DNA from: an uncultured Sphingomonadaceae bacterium
GTDB lineage: Bacteria > Pseudomonadota > Alphaproteobacteria > Sphingomonadales > Sphingomonadaceae
Direction of reading: 5' to 3'
Length of the DNA: 64,000 nucleotides
Assembly (NCBI GenBank): GCA_947493325.1
Contig: CANLQI010000002.1
Location: 124,001-188,000, forward strand
Part shown: positions 2,862 to 55,291 of the stretch, in pieces
Layout of the letters: each line of letters begins with the position of its first letter
Numbering within the stretch: the stretch's first letter is position 1
The notes under the pieces: model-generated
The model's database searches: none
Told to the model about the DNA's origin: nothing
Seen by the model: only the letters and a program-made list of their open reading frames with translations
Position numbers and translations under genes: made by a program

Positions 2862-3035
2862 TCCCCCTTGATGGGGGAGGTATGGAGACTTGGCGGCTTG
2901 CCGCCTAGTCGCAGTGGGTGGGGGTGATCTCTCAGTCTGGCACAGCTTCCAGAGGAACCCGCACCCCCATCCAACTGCGCCTAATTCGCGTGCGCTCATA
3001 AGGCTGCGTATCCTTCCCCCATCAAGGGGGGATGA
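2862..3035. repeat. Bipartite palindromic intergenic repeat (CCCTCCCCCTTGATGGGGGAGG type)
   Basis: CCCTCCCCCTTGATGGGGGAGG near 2862 and inverted partner CCTTCCCCCATCAAGGGGGGAT near 3014; internal GGGTGGGGGT / CACCCCCATCC also inverted. Confidence 0.75.
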
Positions 3036-3219
3036 AAAATACAGCACCCCCTTCCCATTCCGTCTGTTTCAATTTATCCATTCCATATAGTTTCAGGCGA
3101 TACGATTCTGCGGAGGTTAGAATCTCGGACCCCGAAGCAATATGTCTGGCTCCTGCCTTCCTGGGAGCGATTCACGCGCCGCCATTCATTGGGCAGAGCG
3201 CATATCAAGGAGGGTATCC

Positions 3220-4545
3220 ATGACCGACACCGTAAAACCCGTGGGGCAGCCCACACCGCGCCGCAACCCGAAACCCGAAGTCGAAAAACTCGGCGGACGC
3301 AAGCTGAAGCCCGCGACATTGATGATGGGGCATGGCTTTGACCCGACATTGTCCGAAGGTTCATTGAAACCCCCTATCTTCCTTACCTCCACATTCGCAT
3401 TTGAAAGCGCGGCGGCGGGCAAGCGCCATTTTGAAGGCCTGACCGGCAAGCGTCCGGGCGGCGCCGAAGGGCTCGTCTACTCGCGCTTCAACGGCCCGAA
3501 TCAGGAAATCCTCGAAGACCGGCTCAGCGTCTGGGAAGATGCAGAGGATGCGCTGGTTTTCTCCAGCGGCATGTCCGCCATTGCCACATTGTTCCTCGCC
3601 TATGCCAGCCAGAATGACGTGATCGTGCATTCCGGCCCGCTCTATGCGGCAACCGAGTCCATGGTGGCCAAAATCCTGTCTCGCTTCGGCATCACCTATC
3701 TTGATTTCCCGGCGGGCGCGAGCCGTGCGGAGCTGGACAATATTCTGGACCAGGCCAAAGCGAAAGCGGCGGAAACAGGCGGCAAGGTGGCGATGATCTA
3801 TCTTGAAAGCCCCGCCAACCCGACCAATGCGCTGGTCGATATCGAGGCCGTGTCGGCGAGCCGTGACGCGCTCTATGGTGATGCCGATTACAAACCGCCC
3901 ATCGCCATCGACAATACGTTCCTGGGTCCATTGTGGCAGACGCCGCTCAAACATGGCGCGGATATTACCGTCTACAGCCTGACCAAATATGTGGGCGGGC
4001 ATAGCGACCTTGTCGCGGGCGGCCTGATCGGGGCGAAAAAATTCATGGACCCGGTGCGCGCACTGCGCAACACCATTGGCACGATCTGTGACCCCAACAC
4101 CGCATGGATGCTGCTGCGCTCGCTGGAAACCGTTGAACTGCGCATGACGCGTGCGGGCGAAAATGCCGCGAAGGTCTGCGCCTTCCTGAAAGACCATGCC
4201 AAAGTCGATGGCCTCGGTTATCTGGGCTTTATCGACGATGCGTCGCAGCAGGATATCTATGATCGCCACTGCAGCGGCGCAGGCTCCACCTTCTCGCTGT
4301 TTATCAAGGGCGGCGAGGCGGAAAGTTTTGCCTTCCTTGACGCCATGCGCATTGCCAAACTGGCGGTAAGTCTGGGCGGCACGGAAACGCTGGCCAGCCA
4401 TCCCGCCGCAATGACGCACCTGTCGGTATCCGAAGAACGCCGCGCGCAGCTCGGCATCACGGACAATCTGGTGCGCATCTCGATCGGTGTCGAAGATCCG
4501 GAAGACCTGATCGCCGATTTCGATCAGGCGCTAAAGGCGGTTTAA
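3220..4545 (+). CDS. metZ: O-succinylhomoserine sulfhydrylase (Cys/Met metabolism PLP enzyme)
   Basis: PLP-type fold: YSRFNGPNQEILEDRL, VFSSGMSAIATL, SLTKYVGGHSDLVAGG; start chosen at ATG 3220 because AAGGAGGG lies at 3207-3214. Confidence 0.85.
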   Translation: MTDTVKPVGQPTPRRNPKPEVEKLGGRKLKPATLMMGHGFDPTLSEGSLKPPIFLTSTFAFESAAAGKRHFEGLTGKRPGGAEGLVYSRFNGPNQEILEDRLSVWEDAEDALVFSSGMSAIATLFLAYASQNDVIVHSGPLYAATESMVAKILSRFGITYLDFPAGASRAELDNILDQAKAKAAETGGKVAMIYLESPANPTNALVDIEAVSASRDALYGDADYKPPIAIDNTFLGPLWQTPLKHGADITVYSLTKYVGGHSDLVAGGLIGAKKFMDPVRALRNTIGTICDPNTAWMLLRSLETVELRMTRAGENAAKVCAFLKDHAKVDGLGYLGFIDDASQQDIYDRHCSGAGSTFSLFIKGGEAESFAFLDAMRIAKLAVSLGGTETLASHPAAMTHLSVSEERRAQLGITDNLVRISIGVEDPEDLIADFDQALKAV

Positions 4546-4570
4546 GGGAGTCTTTTTGGCCTCACGGTCA

Positions 4571-4654
4571 GTTCGCTACGCGAACACCTCCGGCGGGGGC
4601 GGGCCAATAAGGCCCGGCGCGCGGTCGCGTTTGCGAACGGCAATGAGCCGTTCG
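4571..4654 (+). other. 84-nt three-hairpin structured element, copy A
   Basis: GTTCGC-tac-GCGAAC, CGGGCC-aataa-GGCCCG, CGAACGGC-aatga-GCCGTTCG joined by linkers ACCTCCG..GGGG and GGTCG. Confidence 0.75.
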
Positions 4655-4719
4655 GATTTCGCCATCCGCAACCTCTCATTCTGCCGAGACGTCATAATAG
4701 CTAGCGTTTGGCGCTGATC

Positions 4720-4803
4720 CGAGTTGCGCCCAGCAACTCGGCAAGGCCGACCAGCCGCCGCGGCTTATTGCCGCGCCCCATCGGAGGTAATCGCGCAGCG
4801 ATT
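4720..4803 (-). other. 84-nt three-hairpin structured element, copy B (inverted)
   Basis: On minus strand: AATCGC-tgc-GCGATT, CGCGGC-aataa-GCCGCG, CGAGTTGC-tgggc-GCAACTCG with the same linkers ACCTCCG..GGGG and GGTCG as copy A. Confidence 0.75.
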
Positions 4804-4813
4804 TATCGTGAGA

Positions 4814-5089
4814 TCAAAAACGCCCACCAAGTATCATCCATGCCGCCCCGGCGTTGAACAGCGTGTATACCCCGTACATAAACAGTGCGAGCGTGGAGCC
4901 CGCTCCGGCAAAGCCCATGGCCGCGATCAGAACAACGAACTCAAGCGCATATCCCGCCCAGCCGCCAAATCCTTCCCCCATGGAGCGTCGCATCTGCTCG
5001 ACCATCGGATGCCGGCTTTCCATAGTCGCCTTATGCATGGCAAAATTCGCCACGCCGCACAGAAAAATCAGGATGATGGATGGTGTCAT
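4814..5089 (-). CDS. Small hypothetical membrane protein
   Basis: 91 aa with three hydrophobic segments; ends 10 bp from the structured element. Confidence 0.6.
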   Translation of the reverse strand: MTPSIILIFLCGVANFAMHKATMESRHPMVEQMRRSMGEGFGGWAGYALEFVVLIAAMGFAGAGSTLALFMYGVYTLFNAGAAWMILGGRF

Positions 5090-22774: not shown

Positions 22775-22872
22775 ATTACCCCGGCGAAGGCGGGGGACTG
22801 GGAATCTATCTCACCACAGTAGCTTTGGAATATAAGGTCTGTGAGATAGATTCCCGCTTTCGCGGGAATGAC
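22775..22872. repeat. Bipartite CGTCATTCC-type repeat, copy 4
   Basis: ATTACCCCGGCGAAGGCGGGGGACTGGGAATCT and AGATTCCCGCTTTCGCGGGAATGAC. Confidence 0.7.
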
Positions 22873-55201: not shown

Positions 55202-55291
55202 CGTCATTCCCGCGTAGGCGGGAATCCATCTCTCGCACTTTCACCCGGATGCAAGGGCAGGAGTTGGACTCCTGCTTTCGCAGGAGTGACG
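55202..55291. repeat. Bipartite CGTCATTCCCGC repeat, copy 5, between rrf2 and sufB
   Basis: CGTCATTCCCGCGTAGGCGGGAATCCA ... TGGACTCCTGCTTTCGCAGGAGTGACG. Confidence 0.85.

Follow-up and report, generated by a model that had tools for sequence, protein, structure and literature searches.

The intergenic region between a metZ-like gene and a small convergent ORF, in a 64,000-nucleotide stretch of DNA from an uncultured Sphingomonadaceae bacterium (hereafter the window), raised the question of whether its paired hairpin clusters are structured RNAs or parts of a DNA repeat. The initial annotation had described two inverted 84-nt copies of a three-hairpin element at 4571-4654 (+) and 4720-4803 (-). 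Re-reading of the sequence agreed with these coordinates, lengths and stems, with the seven base-pair differences between the copies, all compensated (two in H1, two in H2 and three in H3), and with the distances of 25 nt to the metZ stop codon and 10 nt to the small ORF. Against dinucleotide shuffles, copy A gave a folding z of -2.8 and copy B a z of -0.8, the latter no better than the shuffles. Chance was ruled out by the 33 arms found in the genome and their covariation, not by folding energy.

A blastn search of the genome of origin (G000, 2.57 Mb) with copy A returned 15 places, several of them close inverted pairs. The model R1, built from an alignment (A2) of 25 hand-checked arms, located the 33 arms, in about 16 units, together with 42 arms in the congener G089 (uncultured isolate 4-2062) and 18 in the congener G153 (Sphingorhabdus sp. 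Alg239-R122). Further homologs with covariation were thus plentiful, and the reading as a degraded protein-coding gene was not borne out, as the initial annotation had expected. Nearly every arm sits in a unit made of a left arm, a spacer and an inverted right arm. The spacer measures 65-69 nt in 33 of the 37 units of the three genomes, the remaining units carrying inserts in the centre, and the units share outer termini in inverted orientation. Both copies in the window are therefore real, not as two separate RNA elements but as the inner parts of one dispersed ~276-bp inverted-repeat unit, whose thermodynamic fold as a whole is a long hairpin. The features of the locus are as follows.

Window ~4548-4825, strand not assigned: whole unit, ~276 bp, in the order alpha arm, centre, beta arm, a layout that recurs in 37 units of three genomes
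Ends of the unit: degenerate outer termini GAGTC / GGGCG; the 16-20-nt terminus reads GAGTCTTTTTGATYTCACGGC
3142-4545, + strand: upstream gene, metZ-like Cys/Met metabolism PLP enzyme (PF01053, E 1.6e-96); the start is the first ATG of the ORF, and the real start may lie further in
4554-4654, + strand: arm A, alpha type, H2b GCGC; R1 match of 88.7 bits, E 2.1e-19 (arm A belongs to the R1 training set)
4559-4594, + strand: stem-loop 1 of arm A, with P1 formed by GCC (4559-4561) and GGC (4592-4594), from the P1 covariation
Interior of this stem-loop, + strand: conserved internal loop TCAC/TCC, basal GGT/ACC and apical H1 (4571-4585)
4600-4616, + strand: H2 of arm A, CGGGCC-AATAA-GGCCCG
4619-4630, + strand: H2b of arm A, a stem-loop with loop GGTC, absent from the initial annotation
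4634-4654, + strand: H3 of arm A, CGAACGGC-AATGA-GCCGTTCG
4655-4719, strand not assigned: centre, 65 nt, conserved and asymmetric once the alpha arm is placed left (alignment of 33 centres)
4720-4819, - strand: arm B, beta type, H2b GGCT/GGCC; R1 match of 100.7 bits, E 2.8e-22 (arm B belongs to the R1 training set)
4720-4740, - strand: H3 of arm B, CGAGTTGC-TGGGC-GCAACTCG
4745-4756, - strand: H2b of arm B, GGCT-GGTC-GGCC
4759-4775, - strand: H2 of arm B, CGCGGC-AATAA-GCCGCG
4780-4814, - strand: stem-loop 1 of arm B, with P1 formed by ATC (4812-4814) and GAT (4780-4782), from the P1 covariation, and H1 at 4789-4803
4814-5089, - strand: convergent small membrane-like ORF, conserved in both relatives with a different C-terminus

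Several variations on this layout were observed. The centres of units L182-L184 are enlarged to 196-269 nt, and a different palindrome (AAATCCTCC...GGAGGATTT) sits within the centre of one unit (L015:1978-2012). At L012:681-2098, two arms lie 1.3 kb apart in reversed orientation, leader towards leader, which may represent a unit that was rearranged. In other genera (L132, L134, L146, L156, L157 and L158), the opposite arm is of a second type, carrying CCTCARRCGCCGGGCG-hairpin-CTTGGCTTCGCG.. in place of the H1 part with H2b and H3 unchanged, and at L152, L153 and L209 two to three arms follow one another downstream of tRNA genes as direct repeats in tandem, not as inverted units. The window also holds other repeats. 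A CCTTCCCCCATCAAGGGGGGA hairpin at 3012-3032, with near-copies at L187:1451-1471 and L189:1876-1896 of the same genome, belongs to another small dispersed repeat family, and CATTCCCGC..GCGGGAATG palindromes at window 22849-22870 and 55205-55226 and at L013:2321-2342 resemble the CGTC-type REPs of Alphaproteobacteria; these co-occur with the paired-arm element and are distinct from it.

Each arm consists of H1, H2 (loop AATAA or TAAC), H2b (a 4-bp stem with loop RGTC) and H3. Among 82 arms, standard pairs occupied 96% of the paired cells and both-side changes were seen in 20 of 25 pairs; the covariation score was.569, compared with.178 (sd.008) for shuffles, and sliding the partners gave no more than.071. 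An alignment restricted to other genera (A4) gave.496 versus.114 for shuffles, with both-side changes in 23 of 25 pairs, A4 having been fitted to the R1 structure and hence being biased towards it. The leader before CAC also covaries with the bases after CCTCC, forming a helix P1 for which the pairs ATTT/AAAT, ATC/GAT, ACC/GGT, GCC/GGC, CTC/GAG, CGC/GCG, TGC/GCA and TGT/ACA were seen. At least three contiguous Watson-Crick pairs were present in 70 of 80 arms of the three genomes and in 33 of 39 parsed distant arms, and the mean P1 lengths (3.24 and 2.85, respectively) exceeded the shuffle maxima of 2.27 and 1.92. The three hairpins first described thus stood, but the fourth stem-loop H2b and the helix P1 had been overlooked, and the linkers had been wrongly taken as unpaired: GGTCG is the loop of H2b, and the leader GCC/ATC pairs with GGC/GAT after CCTCC. 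What had appeared to be a conserved linker is, from the leader covariation, the stem P1 around a conserved internal loop TCRC/TCC.

An obvious possibility was that the two arms pair with each other in one cruciform. On re-pairing of arms, the H2b class (GCGC-like or GGCC-like) was expected to be equal within 17.4 of 35 units and H3 within 9.8 of 37, whereas each was equal within a single unit. The overall identity between the arms of a unit was.67, compared with.718 on re-pairing, and none of 2000 permutations was this low; the per-column dissimilarity peaks in H2b. In other genera, where the spacers are shorter (27-43 nt), H2b was unequal in all eight units. Because the arms of a unit resemble each other less than random arms do, the arm-arm cruciform was rejected as the conserved structure, and in this respect the initial proposal of hairpins conserved within each copy held. 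The unlike-arm rule provides a sharp, testable property of the element.

The position of the arms relative to genes was then considered. None of the 37 units of the three genomes overlapped a called gene, the calls coming from a simple ORF caller that misses short genes such as the 91-aa ORF of the window. The TGA stop codon of this small ORF (4814-4816) falls within the leader of arm B, and the protein of the relatives stops ahead of the element; likewise, 10 of 82 arms supply, with their own TGA, the stop of an open frame that is 100 codons or longer. At distant loci, arms starting no more than 30 nt from the 3′ end of a gene or tRNA were in sense orientation in 27 of 55 cases and antisense in 8 of 55. 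Arms begin 1-9 nt past genes for tRNA-Thr, tRNA-Arg and tRNA-Val, just past another tRNA at L219, directly 3′ of the rplA stop codon in three genera, and after nadC in two genera. In an alphaproteobacterium of ~6.5 Mb, one arm (L221:1501-1595, -) occupies the spacer between 23S and 5S rRNA, and by reading L222 is alike. With arms immediately next to genes for ribosomal proteins, tRNAs and rRNA, an influence on the transcript ends of these genes is possible. An arm was also found after a phage/GTA-type capsid gene. Units or arms adjoin such capsid genes at L168, L178 and L141; by reading, a capsid gene is a neighbour in G089 and in several genera a portal-like gene is near.

The convergent genes and strong hairpins of the window could suggest a pair of intrinsic terminators serving both genes. 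A pattern scan of the interval between these genes, however, yielded no intrinsic terminator; the T-tract precedes the hairpins and no U-tract follows them, in agreement with the earlier judgement that this is not a plain intrinsic terminator. Most units of the three genomes sit between tandem genes, and by reading an ordinary terminator follows the arm at L139 and L150. The bidirectional terminator was thus disfavoured, and we consider it highly improbable. The sense orientation noted earlier after each convergent gene was correct as to position, and is a consequence of the inverted architecture of the unit.

Comparison of orthologous sites revealed turnover of the units. Downstream of metZ, the G089 unit is oriented the other way round and G153 lacks a unit; at the ruvC-ruvA site, G089 has a unit and G153 retains only its terminal scar. 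Four orthologous sites were flipped, and at these 23% of the unpaired positions differed, compared with 11% at sites of unchanged orientation whose flanks were similar. In-place inversion was therefore rejected, and the flipped copies are more likely to have been replaced than inverted. In summary, the unit comprises two inverted, unlike arms of four stem-loops each around a fixed spacer; it is intergenic, lies mostly at gene 3′ ends, and from one orthologous site to the next is found in place, replaced or missing.

A structured cis-acting RNA family, that is, a 3′-UTR element bound by a protein or RNase for processing or stability, selected as RNA and spread as functional copies, would account for three observations: in several families arms stand in sense immediately 3′ of stop codons, tRNAs and 23S rRNA; the asymmetric internal loop and the RGTC loop are conserved; and more than one genus has arms at rplA and nadC. 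However, G.U was not preferred over A.C in the stems (36:33 in alignment A3, 18:13 in A4 and 36:21 in A5), whereas thirteen tRNAs of the same loci gave 19:0, a control in which ARAGORN itself disfavours A.C, and transcription may enter the units from either side. The distant, mostly sense-oriented arms showed a slight G.U excess (36:21, p 0.06). At same-orientation orthologous sites, 43 pairs showed double and 29 single changes, where independence at 11% would predict about 5 and 76. Moreover, presence of the element differs among close species. Taken with the excess of double changes, the parity of G.U and A.C makes it more likely that the stems are maintained as DNA, or in both strands; the parity is a strong, though not absolute, argument against maintenance as RNA only. 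RNA-strand selection was accordingly not supported, and we regard the cis-acting RNA family as rather unlikely. These substitution patterns point away from a classical RNA and towards a palindromic repeat whose copies are remodelled as DNA through mutual exchange. The element thus offers a clean case in which strong covariation alone does not prove RNA function, and the equal G.U and A.C counts with the double-change excess suggest that the signature of RNA selection can arise from exchange at the level of DNA.

A further possibility was that the unit is a MITE or an ssDNA-hairpin mobile element, moved in trans by a putative folded-end transposase or recombinase following IS200/IS605-, RAYT- or attC-like logic. 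The unit resembles MITEs in being short and non-coding with terminal inverted repeats; its constant length, distinct left and right ends, presence or absence at orthologous sites and supply of stop codons also fit mobility. Unlike MITEs, it contains internal covarying hairpins. No parent transposon or other coding element with the same ends was found in a non-exhaustive search, and no clean target-site duplication was seen in the flanks or empty sites inspected. A Y1/RAYT transposase (PF01797) was missing from 19 of 22 carrier genomes, including that of the window, while the positive controls were detected; no enzyme for the spread of the element was identified, and the plasmid and phage record collections gave no match. 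On balance, we consider a mobile element of this kind improbable.

The distribution of the element was examined with R1 at E <= 1e-4. Matches occurred in at least 87 of 301 genomes and at least 38 of 96 genera of Sphingomonadaceae, and in at least 23 of 385 genomes of a class sample, three of them within the family; strict filters make these counts lower bounds, and lone weak matches may be due to chance. Beyond the three genomes the matches were weaker and, outside the family, scattered. A second model built from other genera only (R2) recovered the arms of the window's genome with E down to 3e-13. In a phylum sample of 349 genomes, at least 10 had matches, all of them Alphaproteobacteria, and none was found outside this class. 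Rfam had no match above its gathering threshold in the window, as the failure to recognise a known RNA family had implied, and for 12 element-bearing loci at E up to 0.1 it returned only tRNAs. The literature covered, which excluded subscription papers and bioRxiv, yielded no earlier description. This family of multi-hairpin repeats is previously uncatalogued, and a whole bacterial class gains it.

Taken together, the unit is probably, if by no means certainly, one copy of a dispersed extragenic repeat, non-coding and built as a palindromic mosaic, which exchange among its copies remodels and which acts putatively at transcript 3′ ends. We infer that its palindromes would be kept free of mismatches and reshuffled as DNA, whether through recombination or conversion among copies within the conserved stretches that separate the hairpins, through correction templated by a hairpin, or through both; full identity of the two arms would be eliminated on account of the instability of long palindromes. 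In a transcript, this run of GC-rich hairpins at the end would most likely impede 3′-5′ exonucleases, cause read-through from either of the two convergent genes to pause or be attenuated, or do both, replacing an intrinsic terminator. Against this repeat-based reading, a specific RNA or protein partner could explain why the internal loop and the RGTC loop are conserved and why several genera have arms at the same genes. In its broadest form, we propose only tentatively a class-wide alphaproteobacterial structured element, with the TCRC/TCC internal loop and RGTC tetraloop as its motif and typically two unlike arms, which marks mRNA, tRNA and rRNA 3′ ends and whose fold, in DNA or in RNA, a putative partner recognises.

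Among known systems, BIMEs are associated with mRNA stabilisation, attenuation, and binding of gyrase, IHF and Pol I. Like the REP/BIME sequences of E. coli, the element consists of extragenic, multicopy palindromic modules in alternating orientation, located 3′ of genes as a mosaic of variants. In contrast to a REP, a single hairpin of 20-40 nt, each arm has four stem-loops and a long leader-M helix, and the element shows fixed unlike pairing and no RAYT. RIMEs are alphaproteobacterial intergenic mosaic palindromic elements of around 100 bp, and in this description they resemble the present element. Rhizobial RIMEs are cited as intergenic mosaic elements in PMC2245857, and E. coli REP/BIME sequences are cited in PMC5082802 as stabilising upstream mRNA and attenuating transcription. 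REPs of the CGTC type predominate in Alphaproteobacteria and are without a dedicated transposase (PMC3733652); the present element shares the class and that absence with them, but it is about four times longer and different in sequence. No conserved GTAG or CGTC tag was found at the hairpin foot, the A2-A5 consensus beginning TTTTGATYTCACGGC; lacking both tag and RAYT, the element is not a REP. Br-REP1 of Bradyrhizobium, a three-palindrome repeat in the overlapping 3′-UTRs of convergent genes (PMC5082802), is the nearest described analogue within the class; its core CCGGAATCTCGAGATTCCGG was absent from all fetched loci and, in contrast to the present element, it is not described as unlike paired arms. 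The best reading of these comparisons is that the element would be a REP/BIME/RIME-like extragenic repeat in kind and a separate family.
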